54,836 nucleotides of DNA from Candidatus Adiutrix sp. (GCA_031263565.1 JAISFR010000095.1:1-54836), one strand, 5' to 3'. Shown: positions 298 through 54,484, numbered from the stretch's first letter. Program-made: numbers and translations. Notes: generated by a model from the letters alone, not told the origin.

Positions 298-2838
298 ATG
301 AGAGCCAAACAGGAATTTAAAGTCGTCCCCCGTTTCCCTGAGAAGATGGAGCCCTTAAGGCGCATGGCCTACAACGTCATCTTCAGCTGGCAGAACAATA
401 TCCGCGATATTTTCCAGCGCATAGATCCCAAACTCTGGGACGATTCGGGGCACAACCCGGTGGCCTTCATGGGCCAGGTCAGCCAGGAACGCCTGGAATG
501 CCTGGTGGGCGACCTGGGTTTCATGTCCCAACTGGAAGAGGCGGCCAACCGTTTTGACAAATACATGGCCGCGCCCAAAATCGGCGACGGACGGACCTGC
601 GTGGCCTATTTCTCAGCCGAATTCGGCCTGACCACCTGCGTGCCCATCTATTCAGGAGGCCTGGGCATGCTGGCCGGCGACCATCTGAAGTCGGCCTCGG
701 ATCTCAATATCCCCCTGGTGGGCATGGGCCTGCTCTATCAGGAAGGCTATTTCTCCCAGTATCTCAACAACGACGGCTGGCAGATGGAACGTTACCCGGC
801 CAACGACTTCGACAACATGCCCGTCACCCGGGTGCCGGGGGCCGACGGCCGGCAGATCAAGGTGGAGGTCAATTTCAAAGGCCGGCCGGTCAGCATCGCC
901 GTCTGGTGCGTCCAGGTGGGCCGGATACCCCTCTATCTCCTGGACACCGATCTGGACGAGAACCCGCCCGACATCCGGGGCACCACGGCCCAACTCTACG
1001 GCGGCGACCGGGAGACCCGCATCCGTCAGGAAATCGTTTTGGGCATCGGCGGGGTCCGGGCGCTTAAGGCCATCGGCCTGACCCCCACGGTCATCCATAT
1101 GAACGAAGGCCACAGCGCCTTCTCGGCCCTGGAGCGCATCGCCCTCTTGCGCAAGGATTTCGGCCTGTCCTTCGACGCCGCCCGGGAAGTGGTCCAGGCC
1201 TCCACGGTTTTCACCACCCACACCCCGGTGCCGGCCGGCAACGACACCTTCGACCCGGAACTGGCCCGGGCCTATTTCGAGGAATACTCCAAGGAACTGG
1301 GCATCAACTGGCGGGTGCTCCTGGGCTACGGCCGCATCAACCCCCGCGACGAAGGCGAAGCCTTCGGGGTCACCCCCCTGTCGCTGAGGCTGTCGGCCCA
1401 CGCCAACGGGGTCAGCCGGCTTCACGGCGAAGTCAGCCGCCGCATGTGGCAGAACATCTGGCCCAAAAACCCGGTGGAAGATACCCCCATCGACTACGTC
1501 ACCAACGGCATCCACGTCTCTTCCTGGGCCTCCCGGGAGATCGCCCGTCTTTACGACCGCTACCTGGGCGCCGACTGGAACGAGGACCGCAACCCCCAGC
1601 ACATCTGGCGGCAAATCAGACAGATCCCTCTGTCGGAATTGTGGCGCGCCCATGAAAATTGCCGGGGCCGCCTGGTGGCCTTCACCCGCCGGGCCCTCTT
1701 CAAGCAGTTGAAAGCCCAGGGGGCGGGCACCGACACTCTGCGCCAGAGCATGGAAGTGCTCTCGCCCGACACTTTGACCATCGGCTTTGCCCGCCGCTTC
1801 GCCACCTACAAGCGGGCCACCCTCCTCTTCCGCGACCCAGGCCGCCTGGACAAGATCATCAACAACCCGGCCCGGCCCATCCAACTCATCATTGCCGGCA
1901 AGGCCCACCCCCAGGACAACGAAGGCAAGGCCTTCATCAAGCAGATCATTCATCTGGCCCGGGAACCGCGTTTCAGCAACCGCATTGTTTTTCTGGAAAA
2001 CTATAACATGCGCATGGCCAGCCTTTTGGTCTCCGGCTGCGACGTCTGGCTCAACAACCCGCGCCGGCCGCTGGAAGCCTGCGGCACCAGCGGCATGAAG
2101 GCCACGGCCAACGGCGTCCTGAACCTCTCGGTACTCGACGGCTGGTGGGATGAGGGTTATGCCCCGGAATACGGCTGGGCCATCGGTCAGGGCGAAGTGG
2201 ACCACAACCATGAGCTGCAGGATGAAACCGAGGCCCAGGCTCTCTATAACCTTTTGGAAAAGCAGGTGGCCCCCCTCTTCTACCAGCGCACCTCCGACGG
2301 CCTGCCGCAGCTCTGGTGCGAGATGATGCGGGGCAGCATCTGCGACCTGGTGCCGCGTTTCAGTTCCCACCGCATGGTCATTGATTACTACGAACGTTTT
2401 TACAAGCCCTCCTCGGAACGTTTTGACGGCCTGACCCGGGACAATTTCCGGGAAGCCGCGGCCCGGGCCGACTGGCGGCAGAAGTTGATGACCAGTTGGA
2501 GCGATATGAGCATCACCGGCATTTCCTCCAACGCCGACCAGGGCAGCCTCAACGTGGGCGACGAGATCGAATTCCGCGCCGAAGTGCGCCTGGGCTCGTT
2601 GAGCCCTGAAGACATTACCGTGGAAGCCTATTACGGCCATCTGGATCACATGGGCGAATTCATCGACCGCAACACCCTGCCCCTGAGCCCGGAAAACGAT
2701 CTGGGCGGCGGGGTCCGGCGCTTCAAGAACAGCGTGGCCTGCCGCAGCACCGGCAAGTTCGGCTATACTGTCCGGGTGACCCCCAGCCAGGCCCGCCTGG
2801 CCAACACCTTTGTCATGGGCCTGGTCTCCTGGGCCTGA
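298..2838 (+). CDS. glgP: Alpha-glucan (glycogen/maltodextrin) phosphorylase
   Basis: This 846-residue cytoplasmic enzyme belongs to glycosyltransferase family 35. It splits alpha-1,4-glucans with phosphate to release glucose-1-phosphate and so mobilises stored glycogen. The first ~110 residues match the DUF3417 domain found in the shorter bacterial and archaeal phosphorylases. The PLP site is clear: [14 protein letters not shown] places the Schiff-base lysine at K601, in the family position. NEGHSAF and [12 protein letters not shown] are further conserved catalytic-domain blocks. The ATG at 298 follows a GGAAGGA ribosome-binding sequence. The gene stands alone behind its own promoter, with no other glycogen gene in view. 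Substrate preference (glycogen or maltodextrin) cannot be told from sequence. Confidence 0.93.
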
Positions 2839-42207: not shown

Positions 42208-43740
42208 GTGCTGGGCCAGGTCATCAGCGGCACCCTTCTGGGCATTGACGGACTGAAGATTGAGGTCCAGGTGGATCTCTCCGGCGGTCTGCCGCGCTTT
42301 GACACCGTGGGCCTGCCCGAAGGCGCGGTCCGCGAGAGCAAGGACCGGGTCAAGGCCGCCTTGAAGCATCAGGGCTACCCCTTTCCAGGGGAACGGGTGA
42401 CGGTCAACCTGGCCCCGGCCGATATCCGCAAGGAGGGGGCCGCCTTTGACCTGCCCATTGCCGTGGGTCTCCTGATGGCCCAGGGCCTTTTGGAACCGCA
42501 AAATGTGGCCGAACAGCTCCTGGTGGGCGAATTGGGCCTCAGCGGCGAACTGAGGCCCATCCGGGGCGCTCTGGCTTTGGCCATGACCGCCCGCGAGGCG
42601 GGTCTGCGCGGCCTGATCCTGCCCCGGGCCAATGCCCTGGAGGCGGCCGTGGCCACCGGCCTGGAGGTTCGCCCGGCCGACAGCCTGGGGCAGGTGGTCG
42701 ATTTTTTGAAAGGCCGGGCCGAACTGCCGCCCCTGCCGCCGGCCACCGGTTTGGACCAGGCCCCGGAAGACGAGTCCGGCCCGGATCTGGCCGAGGTGCG
42801 CGGCCAGGAAAGGGCCAAGCGGGCCCTGACCGTAGCCGCCGCCGGAGGCCACAATCTGCTCCTGATCGGCCCGCCGGGCAGCGGCAAGACCATGCTGGCC
42901 CAGCGCCTGCCCTCGATTCTGCCGCCGCTGGGCTTTGAGGAGGCCGTGGAAACCACCAAGATCTACAGCGCGGTGGGCCGTTCCCCGGAAAACCGGCCCC
43001 TGGTGACCGCCCGGCCTTTCCGCAGCCCCCACCACACCATCTCCGACATCGGCCTCATCGGCGGCGGGCGCTATCCCCGGCCCGGCGAGGTCTCCCTGGC
43101 CCATAACGGAGTGCTCTTCCTGGACGAACTGCCGGAATTCAAAAAAAGCGTGCTCGAGGTTCTGCGCCAGCCCCTGGAAGACGGCCTGGTCTCGGTGGCC
43201 CGGGCGTCCTCAAGCCTGGTTTTCCCGTCCCGCTTTATGCTGGTGGCGGCCATGAACCCCTGCCCCTGCGGCTATCTGGGCGATGCCCGCCGGAAATGCC
43301 GCTGCCCGGAGAAGGACATCCACAAATACCGGGCCCGGGTCTCCGGCCCCCTCCTGGACCGCCTGGACATCCATCTGGAGGCCCCGGCCGTCAATTACGA
43401 GGATCTGGCCTCCGACCTCCCGGTGCTGGATTCCCGAACCGTCCGCCAGCAGGTGAGCCGGGCCCGGGCCATCCAGGCCGAACGATTCGCCGGCCGGGGC
43501 CTTTACGTCAACGCCCAGATGTCCAGCGGACAGGTCCGCAAGTGGGCCCCTTTAGGCTCCGGGGCCCAAAAACTTCTGGCCGGCGCCATGAAACAACTGG
43601 GCTTTTCAGCCCGGGCCTATACCCGCATCATCAAGCTGGCCCGGACTATCGCCGACCTGGAAGCCGCCGCGGATATCGCTCCGCCCCATCTGGCCGAAGC
43701 CATCAGCTACCGGGCGCTGGACCGCAACGTCCCCGACTGA
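42208..43740 (+). CDS. comM: YifB/ComM-family Mg-chelatase-like AAA+ ATPase
   Basis: A 510-residue protein. The N-terminal Lon-S5-like domain (FDTVGLPEGAVRESKDRV) precedes an Mg-chelatase-type AAA+ core with Walker A GPPGSGKTML, Walker B LFLDELPEF and the cysteine block NPCPCGYLGD, and a C-terminal Mg_chelatase_C domain (SARAYTRIIKLARTIADL). In Vibrio, ComM promotes branch migration during natural transformation. The gene starts with GTG; AAGGAA lies upstream. Its stop overlaps the start of the secreted leucine-rich-repeat gene by one base (TGATG). Confidence 0.93.
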   Translation: MLGQVISGTLLGIDGLKIEVQVDLSGGLPRFDTVGLPEGAVRESKDRVKAALKHQGYPFPGERVTVNLAPADIRKEGAAFDLPIAVGLLMAQGLLEPQNVAEQLLVGELGLSGELRPIRGALALAMTAREAGLRGLILPRANALEAAVATGLEVRPADSLGQVVDFLKGRAELPPLPPATGLDQAPEDESGPDLAEVRGQERAKRALTVAAAGGHNLLLIGPPGSGKTMLAQRLPSILPPLGFEEAVETTKIYSAVGRSPENRPLVTARPFRSPHHTISDIGLIGGGRYPRPGEVSLAHNGVLFLDELPEFKKSVLEVLRQPLEDGLVSVARASSSLVFPSRFMLVAAMNPCPCGYLGDARRKCRCPEKDIHKYRARVSGPLLDRLDIHLEAPAVNYEDLASDLPVLDSRTVRQQVSRARAIQAERFAGRGLYVNAQMSSGQVRKWAPLGSGAQKLLAGAMKQLGFSARAYTRIIKLARTIADLEAAADIAPPHLAEAISYRALDRNVPD

Positions 43741-45125
43741 TGACCGGCCGCCGCCCATATTTATTCCCGGCCCTGGCCCTGCTGGGGCTGCTGACCGCCC
43801 TGCCCTTGTCGGCCCAGAAAGCTGATCAGGCCTATGAGTCAAGGGCCCAGGAAGTGCTGGCCGCGCTTTCCCGCATCAACGGGCTGGACGGCCTGAACCC
43901 CGACACCCCAGGCGCCTGGCCGGAGCTCACGGACCCGGGCGCCCTGACCGCCCCCGGCCGTTCGGCCCGGGGCGCGGCCTGGCAACGCGGTCAGAACCCG
44001 GCCAGCCTGGAAAGCCTGGTTCTGGTCGGGCAAGGCCTGGCCCGGGTGGCCGATTTCAGCGGCCTGAGGTCCCTGGTCCGGCTGGAATTGACCGATAACG
44101 CCCTAAGGGGCCTGAACCTGGCCGGCGACAGCGCCCTGGTCATTCTGGCCGCCGGGCGGAATCAGCTCAAAAACCTGGACCTCGGCTCCTGCCCGAATCT
44201 GGAACTCTTAGCTCTTTCCGACAATCAACTGGAAAAACTGGAGCCGGCTTCGGCCCCCCGCCTGAAAGCGCTCCAGGCGGCCATGAACCGCCTGACGGCC
44301 CTTGACCTCCGGGGCAACCCGGAACTGGTCCGCCTGGATTTGGCCAATAATCAACTGACCGGCCTGGATCTTTCCGGCAACCCGGCTCTGAGCCTTTTGT
44401 CGCTGTCTTACAACCGGCTGAAATACCTGAACCTGTCGGCCAACCCGCTTCTGACCGATCTGGGGCTCAGGGACAATGAGCTGAAACGCCTGGATCTGGG
44501 CGCCAATCCCTTTCTGAGCGAACTGAACGTCAGCCGCAATCAATTGACGGAACTGGATCTCGGCCGGGCGGCCGCTTTGCGCCGGCTGGCGGCCGGGCAA
44601 AACCTCATCGCCGGGCTGGATCTCTCGGCCAACCCCAGGCTCGAAAGCCTCGATCTCCAGGCTAACCCTCTGACCGAAATCAGAACCGGCCAAAATGAGC
44701 TGGCCGAACTGAGCACCCTGAATCTGGACGGCTGCCGCCTGCCCCTGTCCAAGCTGGCCTTCTGGTCCGGCCGGGCCCGGCTTCGCGGCCGCCTGGGCAA
44801 CCAGGAAAAGGTTTTATTCGAATATAAATGCCTGGCGCCGGATGAACCCCTGGACCTTTCCGGCGAAATGAGCATTGACGGGCAGCCCACGGCCTTTCAA
44901 GTTCTGACCGAAAAAAGGCGGCGGGTCAAGCCGGATGATTATGAAATTGCCGAAGGCTTGATCCGCTTCAAGAAACCCGGCCGCTACCTGGTGGAAATGA
45001 CTAACGGCCGGGTCTTGTCCAGCGAGAGCAAGCGGGCCGGCGGCCAACTGCGGGCCTATAAGGCCAGGGCCGTCACCGGCCTGGTGGAAGTGGCTTCACA
45101 GCCCCTAAGCGACAAAAACCATTAA
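43740..45125 (+). CDS. Secreted leucine-rich-repeat protein
   Basis: A 461-residue exported protein. A signal peptide (residues ~8-25, FPALALLGLLTALPLSAQ) is followed by about a dozen repeats of 21 residues of the form LxxLDLSxNPxLxxLxLxxNxL, between about residues 100 and 330. A C-terminal beta-rich domain of about 130 residues follows (GRYLVEMTNGRV). The start at 43740 overlaps the ComM stop; the same frame is open far upstream inside ComM, but those residues are antisense-like proline-rich noise. The next gene is a paralogue without a signal peptide. The repeats suggest a protein-binding surface in the periplasm or outside. Confidence 0.8.
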   Translation: MTGRRPYLFPALALLGLLTALPLSAQKADQAYESRAQEVLAALSRINGLDGLNPDTPGAWPELTDPGALTAPGRSARGAAWQRGQNPASLESLVLVGQGLARVADFSGLRSLVRLELTDNALRGLNLAGDSALVILAAGRNQLKNLDLGSCPNLELLALSDNQLEKLEPASAPRLKALQAAMNRLTALDLRGNPELVRLDLANNQLTGLDLSGNPALSLLSLSYNRLKYLNLSANPLLTDLGLRDNELKRLDLGANPFLSELNVSRNQLTELDLGRAAALRRLAAGQNLIAGLDLSANPRLESLDLQANPLTEIRTGQNELAELSTLNLDGCRLPLSKLAFWSGRARLRGRLGNQEKVLFEYKCLAPDEPLDLSGEMSIDGQPTAFQVLTEKRRRVKPDDYEIAEGLIRFKKPGRYLVEMTNGRVLSSESKRAGGQLRAYKARAVTGLVEVASQPLSDKNH

Positions 45126-45184: not shown

Positions 45185-46810
45185 ATGCCCGGCCGTCGAA
45201 AAAAAAATCTCAGCCGTTTTGAACGCTTCCGCCGCTGGATGTTCGGCAGCGGTCATCTCGGTTACGACCCCGAGGCCAGGGAATTGTTTCGCCGTCTGGC
45301 CGAGGCCAACGGCTTTGATCTCTGGCCCCCGGACCGTTCGGCCGAGTGGGAGGTCAGCCCGGATCTCAGCCTCCACCAGGGGGTGGAGTGGCGCGACCAA
45401 AGCCGGGAAGAGATGCTGGGCCTGAACCTGAGCGCGCAGGGCCTGTGGGGTCTTCTGGACCTGAGCGGCCTGACCGCCCTGGAGCGGCTCTACCTGGCCG
45501 GCAACGAGCTTGAGGCCCTGCGGCTGGACGACAATGACGGTCTGAAGGAACTGGATCTGGCCGGCAACCGGGTTTTTCGCCTCAATCTCCGGGGCGCGCC
45601 CAATCTGGAGGATCTGGATCTCAGCGCCAACCGGCTGACCAGCCTGGATCTGTCCCAAAACCGCCATCTGGTCTCGGTCTGCGTCAGTGACAATCGCCTG
45701 ATCGAGCTGGATCTGTCCGGGGCGCTCAAACTGCGGCGGCTGCTGGCCGACAGCAATCAACTGACGGAAATAAGGGTCGATAAATGCCCGGATCTGACTT
45801 TTCTGGCGGTCTTTGAAAACCGCCTGTCAGATCTCGACCTGAGCCGCAACGCTCTTTTGGAGACTTTGAGCGCGTCCGACAACCAATTGCGCGGCCTGGA
45901 CCTGACCCATAACCCTCATCTGGCCTACCTCAACGTCTACAATACCGGTCTGAGCGAACTCGACCTGCGCCTCAATTCTCAACTCTGGTATTTGGTGGCG
46001 GTCGGCAATCAACTGGAGGAACTGGATCTCTCCGGCCAGAGGCATCTGACTCATCTGGCGCTTTCCGGCAACCTCCTGGCCGCTCTGGAAGTGGGCCGCA
46101 ACAAGAACCTGCGCACCCTGGACGTGGCCGACAACCGCCTGGAGAGCCTGGATCTGACCCCCAACCAAAATCTCTGGTACGTCTACGCGGCTCTCAACCG
46201 GCTGCGGGAACTGGATCTTTCGGCCAACCCCCATCTTTTGATCCTGGACGTCAGCCAGAACCGCCTGACGGGTCTCCAACTGGCCCGCTGCCCCAAACTC
46301 CAGCGTCTTCTGGCGGCCGACAATCAAATCGGGCGGCTGGACGTCAGCCACAACCCGGACCTGGAGCGTCTCTTCGTCACCCGCAACCCCCTGGAGAACA
46401 TCCACTTCGGCCCTCACCGCCACAAGCGGCTCAAGGAGGTGGACCTGAGCGAAGGGCGCCTGCCTTTGAGCGTTCTGAAAAAATGCGTGGGGCGCGGTTC
46501 GGAACTGACCCTTCTGGGCCCCCAGAACCAGGTCTTTTTTGAGGAACTGAAGCTTCCGGCCGGCCCGGGCTGCCGCCTGGATCTGTCTTCCGAAGCCTCC
46601 TTCGAATCCTGCCCCTCCAGCTTCACGGTCCTGAACGAAAACCGGGAACCGGCGCCCCCCTCCCTGGCCAGGGTCGAAGGCGGTCTGGTTTATTTCCGGC
46701 GGCCCGGCCGCTATCAGGTGCGGATCAGCCATCCCCTCGTCGTCTCCAACACACCCGGGCATTTTGAGCCGGCCCAGGTTTTCACCGGCTGGATCGAGGT
46801 AACCGGCTGA
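45185..46810 (+). CDS. Leucine-rich-repeat protein, paralogue without signal peptide
   Basis: A 541-residue protein. A basic start (MPGRRKKNLSRFERFRRW) and an ~80-residue N-terminal region precede about 16 repeats of the same 21-residue LxxLDLSxNPxL type, up to about residue 430. The C-terminal domain aligns by eye with that of the upstream gene: GRLPLSVL, LDLSSEASF, SFTVLNENR, RRPGRYQV and TGWIEV all have counterparts. No signal peptide or membrane segment is visible, so it is probably cytoplasmic, unlike its neighbour. The ribosome-binding site is weak. It converges with the GGDEF gene across a strong terminator. Confidence 0.78.
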   Translation: MPGRRKKNLSRFERFRRWMFGSGHLGYDPEARELFRRLAEANGFDLWPPDRSAEWEVSPDLSLHQGVEWRDQSREEMLGLNLSAQGLWGLLDLSGLTALERLYLAGNELEALRLDDNDGLKELDLAGNRVFRLNLRGAPNLEDLDLSANRLTSLDLSQNRHLVSVCVSDNRLIELDLSGALKLRRLLADSNQLTEIRVDKCPDLTFLAVFENRLSDLDLSRNALLETLSASDNQLRGLDLTHNPHLAYLNVYNTGLSELDLRLNSQLWYLVAVGNQLEELDLSGQRHLTHLALSGNLLAALEVGRNKNLRTLDVADNRLESLDLTPNQNLWYVYAALNRLRELDLSANPHLLILDVSQNRLTGLQLARCPKLQRLLAADNQIGRLDVSHNPDLERLFVTRNPLENIHFGPHRHKRLKEVDLSEGRLPLSVLKKCVGRGSELTLLGPQNQVFFEELKLPAGPGCRLDLSSEASFESCPSSFTVLNENREPAPPSLARVEGGLVYFRRPGRYQVRISHPLVVSNTPGHFEPAQVFTGWIEVTG

Positions 46811-46821
46811 CGGCCAATGAA

Positions 46822-46861
46822 AAACCCCGCCGCCCAGGCGGCGGCCGGAGCGGCGGGGTTT
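46822..46861. terminator. Bidirectional terminator between LRR and GGDEF genes
   Basis: A perfect 12-bp stem (46822-46833 with 46850-46861) has AAA at its left end and TTT at its right end, so it serves both convergent genes. Confidence 0.8.
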
Positions 46862-46880: not shown

Positions 46881-47864
46881 TCAGGCTCCGGGCAAAAGGC
46901 TGTGGGTCCAGGGGTCGCGCTGGCGGACGGTGTTTTTGCCGGCGTGCTTGGCGTCATAGAGGGCCAGATCGGCCCGGGAGATGAACTCGCGGGAATCCTC
47001 GCCCGGGCGGTAGATGGTGCAGCCGATGCTGGCCGTGACCCGGCGCTCGATGCCGAAATCGTGCTCGGCCACCAGACGCCGGATCTTTTCAGCCACCTGC
47101 ATGGACTGGGATAGGCTGGTGTTGGGGGCGATGATGGCGAATTCCTCGCCGCCGTAGCGCACCGGGGCGTCATTCTTACGCAGCGAACGCCTCAGTATTT
47201 CGCCGATCTGGGTGAGGATGGAGTCGCCGGTCAGATGCCCGAAATCGTCGTTGATGGCCTTAAAATCGTCGATGTCCAGCATCAGCAGGGCCAGGTTGGG
47301 GGCATAGGTGCGGAGATTGGCGATCTGGTTCTGCAGAATGTCCAGAAAAGCGCCGCGGTTATAGAGTTTGGTCAGCGAGTCGTAAAGGGCCCGCTTTTTA
47401 AAGGCGTTGAGGGCGCTGGTGATTTTGCGGCGTTCCAGGAGTTCCACCCGGGCCTTGCGCAGGATGCGGACCCTTTCGGCGTATTCATCGCGCACCGCCT
47501 GAACCAGAAGGACTTTGGCCTCCTCAATCACCCGGGCGGTGGCCGTCAGCGGCACTTCTTCGCCGCCGCCGGTCTCCTCCACCCAGATGCCCGAGCAGAG
47601 GCTGGCCCCCACAGCCGGATCTTTTTCAAAAAAGTCCTCGGCCTCCTCCAGAAAAAACTCCAGCATGGGCGAATACTGCCAGGGGGCGTCGCAGTGAGAC
47701 CCGTCGTCCCCCTGGGGAAAAAGCTGGGTATAAAAACAGGGGGCCAGGCCGCAGAAGCGGTAGACCCGGGGCCCGAGACGGCGCAGAACAGCCACCTCCA
47801 TAGCCATCAGGATGTGGAAACCCAAGGCGGCAGGCGGCGGGGGAATCTTGTCGGAACTGGTCAT
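46881..47864 (-). CDS. GGDEF diguanylate cyclase
   Basis: A 327-residue soluble cyclase making c-di-GMP from two GTP. The catalytic GGEEF lies at 238-242, with metal-binding D197/D200 in LDIDDF and an intact RxxD inhibitory site at 229-232 (RKND), so product feedback is expected. The N-terminal ~150 residues are an unrecognised sensor-like region ending in a helix (EYAERVRILRKARVELLERR). Its ATG overlaps the GTPase stop by one base (TGATG), so the two are translated together. Confidence 0.92.
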   Translation of the reverse strand: MTSSDKIPPPPAALGFHILMAMEVAVLRRLGPRVYRFCGLAPCFYTQLFPQGDDGSHCDAPWQYSPMLEFFLEEAEDFFEKDPAVGASLCSGIWVEETGGGEEVPLTATARVIEEAKVLLVQAVRDEYAERVRILRKARVELLERRKITSALNAFKKRALYDSLTKLYNRGAFLDILQNQIANLRTYAPNLALLMLDIDDFKAINDDFGHLTGDSILTQIGEILRRSLRKNDAPVRYGGEEFAIIAPNTSLSQSMQVAEKIRRLVAEHDFGIERRVTASIGCTIYRPGEDSREFISRADLALYDAKHAGKNTVRQRDPWTHSLLPGA

Positions 47865-48367
47865 CAGCTTCGTCCCATCATTTTGGCCGACAGGGCGCTG
47901 AAGGCCAATTCCACGTTGAGGCCGGTGCGGGCGCTGGTCTTAAGGACCTCCAGGCCGCTGTTCTTCAGGGAGTCAATGACCTTCTCGGTAATTTCCCATT
48001 TGTCGCTGAGATCGTCTTTGTTGATGATCAACAGGTGCGGAGTGTCGTGCCCCAGGATATCGAGCGCGGTGTTGCGAAGCATCAGGGCCACCGACAGGGT
48101 CGACCCCCGGGTGCCGTCGACCACGAAGAAGAGGCCGGAGGCGCCTTTGATGTAGGAGATGTTGACCGAGTGGTAATCGTCCTGCCCTTCGAGGTCCCAG
48201 AGCATAAGGTTGAGGGTTTCCCCGCCGATGTCCAAAGTTTTTTTGCTGACTTTGACCCCCACCGAGGACAGGTAGTCATCGGAGAAGATGGAACGGACAA
48301 AGCGCTGCACCAGGGCGGTCTTGCCCACGGCCAGGGAGCCGATCATGCATATCTTCTTGCTCAACAT
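47864..48367 (-). CDS. Rab/Ras-like small GTPase
   Basis: A 167-residue single-domain GTPase. GSLAVGKT at 10-17 is the P-loop (K16), WDLEGQD at 57-63 is switch II with the Ras-type glutamine retained (Q62), NKDD at 116-119 sets guanine specificity, and TSA at 144-146 is the G5 loop. The switch I threonine is a serine (S35 in SVGV). The absence of lipidation cysteines means membrane contact must come through partners. The ATG at 48367 matches related proteins; the frame extends 33 codons upstream without family similarity. Cyanobacteria and deltaproteobacteria have similar GTPases beside OmpA-like proteins, as here. It has its own promoter. Confidence 0.88.
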   Translation of the reverse strand: MLSKKICMIGSLAVGKTALVQRFVRSIFSDDYLSSVGVKVSKKTLDIGGETLNLMLWDLEGQDDYHSVNISYIKGASGLFFVVDGTRGSTLSVALMLRNTALDILGHDTPHLLIINKDDLSDKWEITEKVIDSLKNSGLEVLKTSARTGLNVELAFSALSAKMMGRS

Positions 48368-48497
48368 GCCGCCCGCCTGCGACGTTTTATATCCCTGCCG
48401 GCCCACGGCCGACCGTAAAAAACCCTCATAAAGGATCCCGCCCGTAATTCTATACCAAAATTCCATACCAAAAGACTACTTTTAGCATAGTTTATAC

Positions 48498-48526
48498 TTT
48501 ATATCATGAAAAAATCATTTTTTCAA
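48498..48526 (-). promoter_or_regulatory. Sigma-70-type promoter for the GTPase-GGDEF pair
   Basis: On the minus strand TTGAAA (48521-48526) and TATAAA (48498-48503) are 17 bases apart. Transcription would start near 48491, giving a leader of about 125 bases before the GTPase ATG at 48367. A read-through transcript from the OmpA-like gene is also possible. Confidence 0.6.
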
Positions 48527-48553
48527 ATTCAGGGCACCGAATGAACCAGGCCG

Positions 48554-50797
48554 TCAATCCAGAGCCAGCGAGGCGCCGCGGCGGCTGAGGTGAACCCGGA
48601 GTTCGATCTTGCGGCTCACTTGATCGGCCGCGGCCCGGTCGTCCCGGCTGCGGGCTTCGGCGGCAAAGTCGGCCCCCATGCCATAAGTGGAGATGGGGAT
48701 GCTGGAGCCCCGGGCGTAAAGCATGGCGGCCAGGGTTTTGGCCCGGGCCTGACTCAACTCGTAATTGTACTTCTGGCTGCCGCTGGAATCGGTATGCCCG
48801 TAAATGGTCAGGGCCACAGCCAGATTCATTCGCCCGGCCAGTTTTTCCAAAGCCGCCAGATCGTCGACCGCCGCTCTGAGCTTGGCGGCATCTTCGGGCA
48901 GCGGCTGGTCTTTGTCGAGCGGAAAAAGAATGACCACCCGGTTGATCTCGTCGGCCAGGTTTTTAAGTTCTATGGTGTCCTGGTCGTCGCGGACCTGGCT
49001 GAAATCGGCCCGGCTGAGGCCCGGAGTGCTCAGAACTTTCTCCCGGACGGCCTCCCGCCAACCGATGGAAGCCCGGCCGTGAAGATGTAAAACATTGTTG
49101 TCGTCCAGCTCGGCTCTGACCCCGTTTTCCGGATCGACCAGCCCGCTGATGGTCACCCGGCCCAGGCCGGGCACGGCCGACAGGCGCTCGAACATCGATA
49201 AGATCCAAGTCAGCGGAACCGGCCCGCTGATGGTCAGGGTGCTGGAGCCCTGGTCAAAGACCGTGCCGAGCCCTTCGGGTTTATTGTCCTTCAAGAGCGC
49301 GGCCACTCTTTTGTCCACAATTTCCTGATCCTGGGAGATAAAGGGCAGATAAAGGATCTGGAAGCGCTCGGCGGGCAGCCCGCCGCCGATCAGGGCCTGA
49401 TCGACCGGGGCGGCCAGTTCGTCTTTCAGGCAGGTTATTTCCCAGCGCCCCAGAAGGCTGGGGACCACGCGCAGGAGAGTCAGGCCGGGGCCGGCGGCTT
49501 TTTGGTGGACCATCCGCTCCAGGCTGCGGGTTTCGAAGTATTTGCAGCCGAAAAAGCCGCCCCCAGCCAGGATGACGATCATCAGAGCCAGGGGCAGGAG
49601 GCGCAAGGCCAGGGGCAGCTTCTGGTCCTCGTCCTTGTATCGGGAAATCAGGAGGCTTTCGAGATGGCGGCCGGCTTTTTTGAAGGGTTCGGTGTCGTCT
49701 TTGAAGGAATCCAGCTCGTCGGCCAAATCCATGACCATCAGTTCCAGCGCGGCCTGCATGTCGATGCGCAGGTTGGGCGGGGCCTGGCCGCGCACCACGC
49801 AGGCCAGATAGGCCTGGGGGGCCTGGACGATGTAGACGTTGACGTCCCCGAATTCCAGGGTGTTCAGTTCCCCTTCGGCAAAGCTGTCGTTGACGAACTG
49901 CTGAATGACGGTCAGCATGGCCGCCACTTGGTCGCCTTCGGCGTCTTTGGTTTCCACGCCTTCCATGACCAGATGGATGAGCGGCAGGGCTGTGGCCGTG
50001 TGAACGAAGAAGACCTGCTCCACCTGATAATCGAGAGTGTGCAGGAGCACCACCTCGCTGAAATCCCGGCCGGTGCGCTTGGCTTCCAGGTACCATTTCA
50101 GGCCGGTCAGGGAGAAGCTTTTTTCCAGGGTGCGGCTTAAATTGTGTACCCGGCTGCGGATGCTTTCGGAGATGGAGCGGCGGATGGCCGGTCCGATGAC
50201 CGGGAAGAGATTGTCGGCCAGTTCATTGGGGTTGTTGCGAACCGAGTTGCGCACGATCTGGTTGACAGTGGGCTTTAAGACCCCGATCAGTTCGTTGTCG
50301 TGCATGACCCTCAGGCGGATGGCCTCGGTGACTACCCGGCTGAGGGCCCGGGCCAGCCGCTCGGGATCCGACAGGTGCCGGTGAAGGCTTTCCAGGCCTT
50401 CGATTTCGCGGCCCAACAAAAGGCGCCGCAGGCGCTCCAGGTCCTGATCGTCGGGCCTGGCGGCCAGGTCAGGCAATTCCGACCCGTCCTGGATTTTGAA
50501 CCCCTGGAGATAGTCGTCGGCTCGCTCCGGGGCCGGATCGTCATCCCGCGACTCGGCCTCTTCGGCGGCCGGGGCGGCCACCAGTTCGTTGACCAGGGCC
50601 AGGAGGTTTTCCTCCCGGGAGTAATCCGGGCCGGGGTCGGCCGAAGACTGTTTACCGGCCGAAAGCTCTGGCGCGGCGGAGGCGGGCTCGGCTTCGCCGC
50701 TCGGAGGGGCCGCCTGGGAATCGGCCGCCTCCGGGTTCAGCTCTTCAGGTGGAACGGACGCGCCCGCGCCCGGCCCGCGTTTTTTAAAAAAACCCAT
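48554..50797 (-). CDS. Trans-envelope OmpA-like protein with large cytoplasmic domain
   Basis: A 747-residue protein. Residues 1-115 are a Pro/Ala/Glu-rich disordered start. LERLRRLLLGREIEGL at about 121 begins a conserved cytoplasmic domain of about 270 residues (also seen in cyanobacterial OmpA-family proteins): IRRSISESIRSRV, GLKWYLEAKRTGRDFSEVVL and VVRGQAPPNLR. One membrane segment at ~395-418 is followed by a periplasmic BON-like region and a C-terminal OmpA peptidoglycan-binding domain (IYGHTDSSGSQKYN, then LSQARAKTLA). It could tie peptidoglycan to the cytoplasmic GTPase next to it. The ATG at 50797 with AGGA upstream is preferred to the TTG at 50815. Confidence 0.85.
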   Translation of the reverse strand: MGFFKKRGPGAGASVPPEELNPEAADSQAAPPSGEAEPASAAPELSAGKQSSADPGPDYSREENLLALVNELVAAPAAEEAESRDDDPAPERADDYLQGFKIQDGSELPDLAARPDDQDLERLRRLLLGREIEGLESLHRHLSDPERLARALSRVVTEAIRLRVMHDNELIGVLKPTVNQIVRNSVRNNPNELADNLFPVIGPAIRRSISESIRSRVHNLSRTLEKSFSLTGLKWYLEAKRTGRDFSEVVLLHTLDYQVEQVFFVHTATALPLIHLVMEGVETKDAEGDQVAAMLTVIQQFVNDSFAEGELNTLEFGDVNVYIVQAPQAYLACVVRGQAPPNLRIDMQAALELMVMDLADELDSFKDDTEPFKKAGRHLESLLISRYKDEDQKLPLALRLLPLALMIVILAGGGFFGCKYFETRSLERMVHQKAAGPGLTLLRVVPSLLGRWEITCLKDELAAPVDQALIGGGLPAERFQILYLPFISQDQEIVDKRVAALLKDNKPEGLGTVFDQGSSTLTISGPVPLTWILSMFERLSAVPGLGRVTISGLVDPENGVRAELDDNNVLHLHGRASIGWREAVREKVLSTPGLSRADFSQVRDDQDTIELKNLADEINRVVILFPLDKDQPLPEDAAKLRAAVDDLAALEKLAGRMNLAVALTIYGHTDSSGSQKYNYELSQARAKTLAAMLYARGSSIPISTYGMGADFAAEARSRDDRAAADQVSRKIELRVHLSRRGASLALD

Positions 50798-50954
50798 GGC
50801 CTGTCCTGATGCCAATTTTTACTTCAGAGCCGGGCAGGACCCGGGGCCAGCTCCGACGACCTTTGCTCGGCCGCCGCAATTAACCGCCCGGGTCGAATTT
50901 GATGAAAGGAAGCGTCTGTTCCCTGTAAGATTTTTCAATACCTGGAACTGGGAA

Positions 50955-51785
50955 TCAGTAGTTGTCGGCGCTGCCGACCTGGGCCACCTGAGGCAGCTCG
51001 TTTTCCGGCTCCTCTTCCCCGCCGGGCTGATATTCCTGGGGCGGCTCTTCCTGGCCGGCGGGCGCGGGGCCTTCTTCACGGTCCTGACCGGCGCCGGTCG
51101 CCAGGTTTTCATCATTCCAGGCTTTGCTGAGCCCGCCCACCATTTCCGCGAACATGCCCGACAGGGCCGCCCGATAAACCATGTCGGCACGGATTTGGGC
51201 GGCGGTCCTGGCCATGACGTTCAGGGCGTCGGCGTATTTGCTTTCGATCTTGTCGGTCAGGCTGCCGCTTTCGCTCAGCAACAGGGACCGCAGATCGCGT
51301 TCGGCGCTGTCCAGGGTGCCGCTCAGTTTGGCCAGCTTGCGCTCGAAAGTCTCGGAGGCGCTGGCCAGGTCGCCGCTCAGGCGGGCGACGGCTTCCTGCC
51401 GGTCGCGTTCTTCGGCCTTCAGGGCCTCGGCCCGTTCCCGCTGCTCAGTCTTCAGGGCCTCGGCCCGTTCCCGCTGCTCGGTCTGGATGGCTTCCAGGCG
51501 CTCGCGTTGCTCGGCCTTCTGTTCGGCCCCCCGTTCTTCATTTTCCCTTTTCAACCGGTCCAGAAGAGAGGACACTTCACTCTTCATAAAATTTTCCAGG
51601 GAATCGAGGCGTTTTCTCAAAGAGTCCTTGACGTCATGGATCTCTCTTAAAAAACGTTCTTCCTGGCGCCTGAAACGCAATTCCATGTCCTTCAACTGGG
51701 CGCCGAAGAGAATCTCGCGAACCTGTTCCATGGGGGCGTTGGCCGACTGCTGTTCTTTGGCTCCGGGGTAATTGGTCTTGTCCAT
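50955..51785 (-). CDS. Coiled-coil protein of the GTPase/OmpA-like module
   Basis: A 276-residue soluble protein. A conserved head (VREILFGAQLKDMELRF) leads into a long coiled coil from about residue 30 to 175. It includes four 11-residue repeats of the type EQRERAEALKT around residues 90-133, hendecads characteristic of extended coiled coils. A helical AALSGMFAEMVGGLSKAW segment and a Pro/Glu tail end it. Relatives with the same head occur beside OmpA-like proteins and small GTPases in other bacteria, from memory. It lies 157 bases upstream of the OmpA-like gene. The start has AGGAAC 7 bases upstream. Confidence 0.75.
   Translation of the reverse strand: MDKTNYPGAKEQQSANAPMEQVREILFGAQLKDMELRFRRQEERFLREIHDVKDSLRKRLDSLENFMKSEVSSLLDRLKRENEERGAEQKAEQRERLEAIQTEQRERAEALKTEQRERAEALKAEERDRQEAVARLSGDLASASETFERKLAKLSGTLDSAERDLRSLLLSESGSLTDKIESKYADALNVMARTAAQIRADMVYRAALSGMFAEMVGGLSKAWNDENLATGAGQDREEGPAPAGQEEPPQEYQPGGEEEPENELPQVAQVGSADNY
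51418..51516. repeat. 33-bp tandem repeat in the coiled-coil gene
   Basis: Two copies of a 33-base unit (51418-51450 and 51451-51483) are nearly identical, and a third (51484-51516) is diverged. Each encodes one hendecad of the coiled coil. Recombination between copies would change coil length by exact 11-residue steps. Confidence 0.75.
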
Positions 51786-51877
51786 GACACGTTCCTGTTC
51801 TATCTGAAGTGGCCGCCCGGCCGTCCGGGCCGGGGCGGAGGCGCGCGGCGCCTGGCTGTTCTCTAAAAAATTATTTT

Positions 51878-51906
51878 ATTTTACAATATGTAAGCGATAT
51901 TTGCAA
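51878..51906 (-). promoter_or_regulatory. Sigma-70-type promoter for the coiled-coil/OmpA-like operon
   Basis: On the minus strand TTGCAA (51901-51906) and TAAAAT (51878-51883) are 17 bases apart in a short AT-rich gap. Transcription would start near 51871, about 85 bases before the coiled-coil start. Confidence 0.5.
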
Positions 51907-51922
51907 GCCGCCGGCCGCCATT

Positions 51923-53173
51923 TCAGTATTCCCGGAAGCGTCTGCGGACGGCTTTGGCCAGGTCGAGGTTGAGCAGCAGAATATCCACCAGTTCGGGATC
52001 GAAATGATGCCCGCTTTCCTGGATCATGATCTGGCAGGCCAGGTCGCCGTCGAAAGCGTCTTTGTAGACCCGGCGCGAGGTCAGGGCGTCAAAGACGTCG
52101 GCCACCGCCGTCACCCGGCCGAAGATGGAGATTTCCTCGCCTTTTTTACCTAAAGGGCGCTCGTCCGCCCCGTGGTGGCCGGGGAGGGCCAGGCCGGTGT
52201 CGGGGTTGATCCAGCCCGGGTAGCCCCGTCCGTCCCAGCGCTCATGGTGGTTGAGGATCACCTCGTAAATCATCCGGTCCAGCTCCGAGAAAACGGGCTC
52301 GAAAAGCTTCAGCCCGATGAGCACATGTTTTTGCATCTCCTGACGCTCGTCGTGGTTCAGGCGGGTAGGCTTGTTGAGAATCTGGTCGGAGATCCCGACC
52401 TTGCCCACATCGTGCAGCATGGCCGCCATCCGCAGATGGTCGCGGTTCTTCTTGATGACGGCCGGGGTCAGTGAGCGTTTTCGGGCCCAGTCTTCATAGA
52501 GCAGGCCCGCCAGGGCGGCCACCCGTTGGGCGTGGAGGGTGGTTTCCCGGGGGTCGCGCAGTTCGGCCATCCTGACCGAGCGCAGGAGCATCTGCCGCAC
52601 CAGTTGGGCTCTTTCCAGGGCCATGGCCGCGGTTGAGGAAAAGATGATCATCAGTTCCTCGTCGTCGCGCTCGAAAGCCCGGGGCTGACCGTCTGCCGCC
52701 CGCGGATTGATTATCTGAAGAACCCCGATGGTTTCCAGCCTCAGGTCGCTTAGCGGCAGGGTCAGGATGGAGCGGGTGACATAGCCGTTTTTGCGGTCGA
52801 ATTCCGGGTCGAAACTATAGGGACTGTCCAGGTCTATGTCGTAGGCGTCGGCCACGTTCAGCGGCCGGCCTTCGCGGCCCACATAGGCGGCCAGGGAATT
52901 GCCGGTCAGGGGTATTTCCTGGTTTTTGTAGCCGGAAAAGTCTTTGGCGGACTCGCTTTTGACGAAATAATCATTCTGGCTGTAAGAAAGGAGCAGCCGG
53001 TCGCCTTCGCGGATGTAGATGGAGCCGGCCTCGGCGCCCACAAAGCGCCGCGCTTCGCTTAAGATGGTTTCCATCATGACGTCCAGGTCGGAGACCTGAT
53101 TCAAAGTGCTGGCCAAGGCCCTTAAGGCCTCGAATTTTTCGTGTTCCATCAATCCAGGCTTATTAGTGGCCAT
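51923..53173 (-). CDS. GAF-HD-GYP c-di-GMP phosphodiesterase
   Basis: A 416-residue soluble enzyme that hydrolyses c-di-GMP. A GAF sensor domain (about residues 15-190) precedes an HD-GYP domain with H254/D255 in LHDVGKVGI and GYP at 317-319 (RWDGRGYP), both intact. No membrane segment is present. The ATG at 53173 has GGAG 8 bases upstream; the frame is open 36 codons further. It lies first in the minus-strand block that ends in a GGDEF cyclase, so synthesis and breakdown of c-di-GMP flank the GTPase module. Confidence 0.92.
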   Translation of the reverse strand: MATNKPGLMEHEKFEALRALASTLNQVSDLDVMMETILSEARRFVGAEAGSIYIREGDRLLLSYSQNDYFVKSESAKDFSGYKNQEIPLTGNSLAAYVGREGRPLNVADAYDIDLDSPYSFDPEFDRKNGYVTRSILTLPLSDLRLETIGVLQIINPRAADGQPRAFERDDEELMIIFSSTAAMALERAQLVRQMLLRSVRMAELRDPRETTLHAQRVAALAGLLYEDWARKRSLTPAVIKKNRDHLRMAAMLHDVGKVGISDQILNKPTRLNHDERQEMQKHVLIGLKLFEPVFSELDRMIYEVILNHHERWDGRGYPGWINPDTGLALPGHHGADERPLGKKGEEISIFGRVTAVADVFDALTSRRVYKDAFDGDLACQIMIQESGHHFDPELVDILLLNLDLAKAVRRRFREY

Positions 53174-53755
53174 AATCCCACTCCAGGTCGACGCCGCGGC
53201 CAATTTTTGATCACTGTCCAGGTACTTTGTCCAAGCAGTGTTCAAAGTATGGCCTATAGCCTTTTTATAGCATAATAACATAATATCATAAAGCTCTTTT
53301 TATGGCCTAAACCGGGCGGCGGCCAAACTCCTGCCAGGACATATAAAATTATTGAGATGCCCGCGATCCGGAGATGGTCTGGCTTGGAAGCCCGATATCG
53401 GCGCTCCGGGCGCCAGACTGATAATCATGGAGACATTATAGTCAACTGAGGCTGAAGTCTCCAGCCAACTTTTCATGTTGGAGATAAGCAACGAAATGCT
53501 TTTGAAAAACCTGCGTCTTGTCGAGGGTGACTACTTAAAGCGCGCGGCGCTGCTTAAAGCCTGAAGGCCGGAGGCTCGCGCTCCACTGATCCGCCGGGAA
53601 AGAATTGCCTATTCGGCCTGGGTACAATAATTGCACCCAAGCCAGTGGAGTAGTTTTTTCACCCTGAAACCAAAAACGAAGCGCAGTGACGCGCTGGCCG
53701 GCCCCGATCAGGACAGGTATTCCGGAGGCCGCGCCGACAATCTAAGGAGGGATTT
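53174..53755. other. Divergent intergenic region between HD-GYP and EF-hand genes
   Basis: No gene is supported. The left part is AT-rich and presumably carries the HD-GYP promoter, but I cannot place it. CTTAAAGC occurs twice as a direct repeat (53534-53541 and 53553-53560). Several short stems are visible, such as CCAAC/GTTGG around 53466-53482. The possible sigma-54 site lies towards the right end. Confidence 0.45.
53621..53634 (+). promoter_or_regulatory. Candidate sigma-54 (-24/-12) promoter for the EF-hand gene
   Basis: GGTACAATAATTGC has the invariant GG and GC exactly 10 bases apart, with TTGCA at the -12 side, and matches the consensus at all but two defined positions. Transcription would start near 53646, about 110 bases before the gene. 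The site also lies in a near-palindrome, so an operator is an alternative. No enhancer-binding regulator is in view. Confidence 0.4.
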
Positions 53756-54484
53756 ATGAGTATTTCAGCCCTGTCTAACTCAACCTCATCCTATTGGCAG
53801 GAGCGTATAAACGCGTCCAAAGCCAAAGGAGCGGAACAGCCCCAGGATGATCTGGCCACCAAACTGTTCACCGATCTGGACATTGACGGCGACGAAGGCA
53901 TCAGCCTGGCCGAATCCGGACTGGACCAGGAAACCTATGACTCCATGGACACCGACAAGGACGGCGCCGTCAGTTTCAGCGAACTGCAGGCCGCTTTGGA
54001 ATTTCAGCAGTCGGCCATACTGGGTCAGATTCAGTTCAAGCAGCAGTCCGGCGAAGCGCCCCCGCCGCCTGACGGAGAGCAGTCTGAACAGCTCAACACC
54101 CAGGAGATATTGGCCTCCATCATGAGCGGAACGATGCCCATGGGGCCGCCTCAGGATGGAGCCGCCGCTGAAGGAGTAGATGATGCCGGCGACAGCGGCG
54201 GAGTGAGCGTAGCCGGATCAGGCCAGGGCCAATCCGAATATGATGAGATGGACAGCAACAAAGACGGGGTGGTCTCCGCCCAGGAATTGGCTGCGGCTTT
54301 GGGGCAGTTCAGCCCCTTCAGTTCCAGACTGTCAGCCAATAACAGCGCCCAGACCGGGCAGACCACCGATTCCGGCAGTAAACTGAGCCAGAATTGGCTG
54401 TCCGAACTGGCCGCTCGCCTCTACAGCTCTTCAGCCAACTACTCGATCAGTAATCTGACTCAGGGACTCAGCTTTTCCGCCTGA
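53756..54484 (+). CDS. EF-hand calcium-binding protein
   Basis: A 242-residue hydrophilic protein with three EF-hand loops: residues 42-53 (DIDGDEGISLAE), 65-76 (DTDKDGAVSFSE) and 166-177 (DSNKDGVVSAQE), each with acidic ligands at positions 1, 3, 5 and 12, allowing one Asn. A Pro/Gly/Ser-rich linker separates the first pair from the third. The C-terminus is Ser/Asn-rich and ends in a hydrophobic pattern (NLTQGLSFSA). No signal peptide is present; secretion by a non-Sec route is possible but unproven. AAGGAGG lies upstream of the ATG. It may respond to calcium as a sensor or buffer. Confidence 0.8.
   Translation: MSISALSNSTSSYWQERINASKAKGAEQPQDDLATKLFTDLDIDGDEGISLAESGLDQETYDSMDTDKDGAVSFSELQAALEFQQSAILGQIQFKQQSGEAPPPPDGEQSEQLNTQEILASIMSGTMPMGPPQDGAAAEGVDDAGDSGGVSVAGSGQGQSEYDEMDSNKDGVVSAQELAAALGQFSPFSSRLSANNSAQTGQTTDSGSKLSQNWLSELAARLYSSSANYSISNLTQGLSFSA

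Follow-up and report, generated by a model that had tools for sequence, protein, structure and literature searches.

The DNA analyzed here (the window, 54,836 nucleotides from Candidatus Adiutrix sp., GCA_031263565.1 JAISFR010000095.1:1-54836) carries 5 consecutive open reading frames on its minus strand. These encode a GAF-HD-GYP phosphodiesterase (start at 53281 or 53173, end at 51923), a 276-amino-acid coiled-coil protein (50955-51785), an OmpA-like trans-envelope protein (48554-50815, with its start at 50815 or 50797), a Rab-like small GTPase of the Rup family (167 amino acids, 47864-48367), and an output protein in which an N-terminal PAS-like coupling domain precedes an active-looking GGDEF domain (46881-47864). 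The initial annotation had listed five consecutive same-strand genes, and all were present, with domains supported by Pfam matches to HD_5 (4.5e-27), OmpA (1.6e-8), Ras (PF00071, 4.7e-27), and GGDEF (8.7e-45). The one-base overlap that it reported was also found, as base 47864 belongs both to the stop codon of the GTPase gene and to the start codon of the GGDEF gene. By eye, the catalytic motifs of the GTPase, GGDEF (GGEEF and the RxxD I-site), and HD and GYP were intact. The coiled-coil gene is preceded by a promoter-like site of its own (51906-51878), and a terminator-like hairpin 3' of the GGDEF gene (46827-46844, minus strand) closes the unit. On the plus strand, 2 genes for leucine-rich-repeat proteins (43296-45125 and 45185-46810) are convergent with the GGDEF gene, and a gene for an EF-hand protein (53756-54484) is divergent from the HD-GYP gene.

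By comparison with relatives, the GTPase probably starts at 48367 (MLSKKICM...). The protein is a single-domain Ras/Rab-like GTPase with a complete set of G1-G5 motifs, including GSLAVGKT, DLEGQ, NKDD, and TSA, and its best sequence matches in the PDB were eukaryotic Rabs (E 4e-24). Alignment A1 placed Gln62 (48182-48184, minus strand) in the G3 motif, WDLEGQ.

The OmpA-like protein consists of a cytoplasmic domain, one transmembrane helix (residues ~404-425, the LRLLPLALMIVILAGGGFFG region, 49541-49606, minus strand, assigned by reading the sequence), periplasmic repeats, and an OmpA peptidoglycan-binding domain (residues 648-725, 48641-48874, minus strand; PF00691, 35.3 bits vs a cut-off of 27.2). 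The periplasmic part has two similar repeats in the window (residues ~520-630, minus strand) and one in most relatives; several are present in a Mesorhizobium protein (L042). At L137 (G149), the reading frame of the corresponding protein stays open for at least 2,357 amino acids. Conservation of a cytoplasmic domain of ~270 residues had been claimed beforehand; it was borne out by aligning 51 sequences, which come from many phyla and share 30-49% identity with the window. An arginine follows the invariant tryptophan of a GLKWR motif in at least 90% of these 51 sequences, and the window has tyrosine there (GLKWY, residues ~239-243, ~50087-50101, minus strand).

An AlphaFold2 model of the cytoplasmic domain (m396697545c97), built from the 51-sequence alignment, had a mean pLDDT of 84.6. 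The region predicted to be a longin domain (residues 261-394 of the protein, model residues 147-280, 49634-50035, minus strand) was mostly at 80-97, with much of it at 92-97, and its secondary-structure order in the model was bb-a-bbb-a-a. The first-ranked Foldseek match was Mon1-Ccz1 bound to the Rab Ypt7 (E 5.5e-5). VIA-align returned Z scores of 13.8 for Sec22b, 13.7 for Ykt6, 13.1 for Fuzzy, 11.7 for TRAPPIII, and 10.6 for Mon1-Ccz1; Ego3 (Z 10.3) and Gse1 (Z 9.9) were also matched, in alignments reaching residues 251-258 only. MglB chains stood lower in the Foldseek list and were absent from the 50 VIA-align matches listed; despite this ranking, the domain may be kin to roadblock domains. 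The best Pfam match of the window domain was Fuz_longin_1, the entry named 'longin domain of FUZ, MON1 and HPS1', at a sub-threshold level (E 0.014, 16.0 bits vs a cut-off of 26.1), so that no longin match exceeded the curated Pfam cut-off for this domain. Fuz_longin_1 was the commonest weak Pfam match among the 51 domains (3 of 51, with Robl_LC7 in 2), and a sequence-profile search of the PDB with the cytoplasmic domain found no longin or other relative. Taken together, the structural matches indicate that the cytoplasmic domain very probably has a longin fold.

In eukaryotes, longin domains of this kind bind or activate Rab GTPases. They occur also in SNAREs and coat subunits, and therefore the fold alone is no proof of GTPase regulation; eukaryotic longin GEFs, moreover, are heterodimers. 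A single longin domain was predicted in the cassette, and no second longin partner for it was found. Gerondopoulos et al. (PMC6864590) described the longin domains in the first position of tri-longin GEFs as having the canonical bb-a-bbb-a-a arrangement and as being needed for GEF activity. Because a longin fold is predicted, contact between the GTPase and the OmpA-like protein is plausible, and we lean toward, rather than insist on, a regulatory role of the longin domain on the GTPase.

The coiled-coil protein has a conserved N-terminal head, hendecad repeats, and a conserved C-terminal block. Its hendecad nature, already proposed from inspection, was confirmed by the 11-residue repeat, which appears in the DNA as a 33-bp tandem repeat of 2.1 copies. 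The head motif, PMEQVREILFGAQLKDMELRF (about residues 18-38, 51672-51731, minus strand), has a counterpart in the OmpA-like protein, LERLRRLLLGREIEGLESL (about residues 126-148, 50372-50440, minus strand): the head pattern (V/I)R(D/E)(I/L)LFGxQ...E resembles LRxLLLGxE...E, found where the OmpA cytoplasmic domain begins (hhalign P 4.3e-5). This likeness was the top score of 25,284 profile windows, at 13.3 vs a maximum of 11.5 in a small control of 60 permutations. The shared motif may mean that the coiled coil and the OmpA-like protein have a common partner. Weak matches of the coiled coil, Zorya ZorA among them, scored far under the cut-off, and we set them aside.

The order coiled coil, OmpA, GTPase, and GGDEF was found in 14 of 20 relatives' loci. 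Another 5 had the coiled coil and OmpA only (2 split loci and 3 near contig ends), and 1 was without a GGDEF gene. The HD-GYP gene had been proposed as a member of the module; it adjoins the module in 1 of the 20 loci (L022), the coiled-coil gene has its own promoter-like site, and we rejected HD-GYP as a core part. The unit is four genes: coiled coil, OmpA-like anchor, Rab-like GTPase, and GGDEF. In a scan with the GTPase alignment alone, covering one genome per species in 84,980 species, the best 80 of more than 552 loci were named. Where these named loci had enough upstream DNA, the coiled coil and the OmpA-like protein with its predicted longin domain (longin-OmpA) were present in 56 of 63, and the GTPase lacked a nearby longin-OmpA in 7. 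Where there was enough downstream DNA, a PAS-like output protein was present in 73 of 76. GTPase and longin-OmpA occurred together in at least 11 named phyla, which agrees with the statement in the initial annotation that the coiled-coil, OmpA, and GTPase trio recurs in other phyla. The co-occurrence survey suggested there was also positive, with a conserved neighborhood and coincidence of the two families across genomes: of 148 genomes from the same phylum, 7 encode the GTPase and 5 encode the longin-OmpA domain, and each of these 5 also has the GTPase (Fisher 3.8e-8, a value that ignores phylogeny and treats as independent genomes that are not fully so). Plasmid searches, one per protein, returned the identical four records. 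The cassette of G005 and G006 is in two pieces, the coiled coil-OmpA pair lying apart from the GTPase-GGDEF pair, and all four genes are kept. The co-occurrence and the retention of all four genes in split loci argue for joint function.

The GGDEF domain of the output protein scored 152.8 bits, above the Pfam cut-off, and has a GGEEF motif; by these sequence features the protein looks like an active diguanylate cyclase. Residues 1-158 were predicted by AlphaFold2 (mfe49778d9299, pLDDT 93.5) as a PAS domain with a long signaling helix, the coupling domain and helix spanning residues 12-157 (47394-47831, minus strand). Foldseek matched the model to PAS/LOV domains, and the best VIA-align match was FixL (Z 8.3). 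A PAS-like domain of this kind starts nearly every output protein and comes in two flavors, A and B, across other systems. The enzymes behind it were varied: among 62 output proteins there were 28 histidine-kinase-type ATPases, 11 GGDEF domains, 8 sigma-54 activators, 5 SpoIIE domains, 5 HD domains, and 4 class III cyclases. Cyclic di-GMP is one among at least 6 outputs of the cassette. Since the coupling domain heads so many enzymes, c-di-GMP is the output of the window's lineage and not the definition of the system. A divergent layout was seen at 2 Desulfomonile loci (L053 and L142), where one strand encodes the GTPase together with a PAS-A protein that stands alone, and the other encodes the coiled coil, OmpA, and an output protein of the PAS-B type.

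Much of this arrangement has been described before. Wuichet and Søgaard-Andersen (2014; PMC4316618) defined Group 1 Rup GTPases, which have three conserved neighbors: a cytoplasmic coiled coil, a protein that combines an unknown domain with a transmembrane helix and OmpA, and an output protein with GGDEF/EAL or histidine kinase domains. The initial annotation had named no described function. That held insofar as no member had been characterized as of 2014, according to the same paper; however, the trio and its output gene had already been named Group 1 Rup. Among open-licence papers, no later study of Group 1 Rup systems was found. The window shares with Group 1 Rup the Rab-like GTPase, the coiled coil, the domain-TM-OmpA protein, and an output protein whose N-terminal region is conserved. 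It goes beyond that description in that the 'unknown' domain is predicted to be a longin and that output classes extend past GGDEF/EAL and histidine kinase.

The window also departs from Group 1 Rup in its catalytic residues. According to PMC4316618, the Group 1 Rup GTPase lacks the G3 glutamine and the output protein has an invariant glutamine within its N-terminal region; the authors suggest that this glutamine might act in trans. The window GTPase, in contrast, has the G3 glutamine. Its output protein has Arg136 (47457-47459, minus strand) at the site that is glutamine in nearly all other systems, presumably the invariant glutamine of the paper. Every member of the window's family seen has WD[LM]EGQ in the GTPase, and the output helix site is arginine, or serine in one. 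In most other systems the residue after the G3 glycine is E, D, K, R, S, or N; outside the window's family, the G3 glutamine was present only in L061, L072, and L073 among the loci compared. A few deltaproteobacterial relatives have arginine at the output helix site and GTPases without the G3 glutamine. A clean swap of glutamine between the GTPase (cis) and the output protein (trans) was rejected: loci such as L049, L051, L052, L057, and L058 have neither glutamine, L073 has both, and the changes are nested. On the tree each glutamine trait changes twice, with the changes nested in one clade; being so few and nested, they do not allow the correlation to be tested. A concatenated GTPase and longin tree, from which the Rup sequences of the paper were absent, placed the window inside systems of the same gene content without cis glutamine (support of 93 for a 25-row clade and 100 for 24 rows). 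It is possible that the trans glutamine first became arginine and that the cis glutamine was regained later, which would give the classical Ras arrangement of cis glutamine and trans arginine. Given the loci with neither or both glutamines, this order is a suggestion and not evidence.

We consider it about an even chance that the cassette works as a Rab-like GTPase relay anchored in the envelope and is a variant of the Group 1 Rup system. In this relay, the OmpA-like protein would span the inner membrane and bind peptidoglycan, and its cytoplasmic longin part would hold the Rab-like GTPase or regulate it in a GEF- or GAP-like manner. A change in the wall or envelope would alter the longin domain and, through it, the nucleotide state of the GTPase, which when bound to GTP would engage the output protein at its PAS-like domain. 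That engagement would gate the enzyme, in the window for c-di-GMP synthesis. The coiled coil, through its OmpA-like head motif, probably competes for the same partner or clusters around it. The basis of this relay is the gene content, order, conservation, co-occurrence, and interchangeable outputs of the cassette; to these and to the predicted longin and PAS folds we add, by inference, the GTPase-longin and GTPase-PAS contacts, which way the signal runs, and what the coiled coil does.

The longin domain could instead be a platform with no GEF or GAP activity: the wall-bound longin-OmpA protein would recruit the GTPase to a site, as in MglA-like polarity, and the GTPase would bring the enzyme so that signaling is local. 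Longin and roadblock domains do serve as GTPase platforms (PMC6864590), the partner of MglA is a roadblock GAP/GEF (PMC10933270), and PMC4316618 portrays the parts as a single membrane-linked signaling system. However, in the loci read, no polar-motility gene was recognized next to the module, and outputs of the sigma-54 activator type do not obviously need a fixed place; we regard this possibility as unlikely. Still less probable is a reversed direction, in which sensing falls to the enzyme or to its PAS ligand, the PAS-like domain serves as a GAP for the GTPase, and the GTPase in turn affects the OmpA/coiled-coil complex and hence the envelope. The near-invariant glutamine in the PAS helix (arginine in the window's lineage), found where the GTPase has none of its own, would suit such a GAP, as would the proposal, made in PMC4316618, of a glutamine supplied in trans; however, the varied output enzymes are typical end points, and the cis and trans residues are not cleanly swapped. 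The initial annotation's own idea, a switch with c-di-GMP breakdown and synthesis at its two ends set by the GTPase, draws on the intact HD-GYP and GGDEF genes flanking the trio in the window and on HD domains fused as outputs in L054, L087, and L118, but is very improbable as the defining idea, since the HD-GYP gene is not conserved beside the module, carries a GAF domain rather than the coupling domain, and is separated by the promoter-like site of the coiled-coil gene, and since most outputs in other systems are not c-di-GMP enzymes.

The relay, with its wall-anchored predicted longin, can be set beside three known systems. As in MglA-MglB, the gene for a prokaryotic small GTPase is accompanied by one for a protein from the related roadblock/longin group; however, the G3 motif of MglA is TVPGQ or GTPGQ according to PMC4316618, whereas that of the window GTPase is DLEGQ, and MglB is a roadblock protein whereas its counterpart in the window is a predicted longin within a trans-envelope protein. 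The tri-longin Rab GEFs (Mon1-Ccz1 and Fuzzy-Inturned) resemble it in the predicted bb-a-bbb-a-a fold of the first longin and the Rab-like GTPase partner, but have three longins per chain and are heterodimers; the window protein is bacterial, with one predicted longin fused to a transmembrane helix and OmpA. Actinobacterial conservons (CvnA-D) likewise combine a small GTPase and a signaling enzyme in a conserved operon, but with an MglA-type GTPase and an MglB homologue and without an OmpA anchor or varied PAS-coupled outputs.

The cassette is real, widespread, and already described, and the window is a lineage variant of it. New here are the longin prediction, the varied PAS-coupled outputs, the glutamine/arginine departure of the window's lineage, and the retention of genes in split cassettes. 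Somewhat short of even confidence, we suggest that many bacterial phyla have a transmembrane, peptidoglycan-anchored longin regulator of a Rab-like GTPase resembling the tri-longin GEFs, which would pass the envelope state to PAS-coupled outputs with a lineage-specific division of glutamine and arginine between GTPase and effector. With the inner part predicted as a longin, its function is now open to biochemical test, the direct one being nucleotide exchange or hydrolysis on the neighboring GTPase. The interchangeable outputs suggest a general wiring of one GTPase to many kinds of enzyme. If the longin role holds, many bacterial phyla would have a pairing of Rab and longin that is usually discussed for eukaryotes and Asgard archaea.
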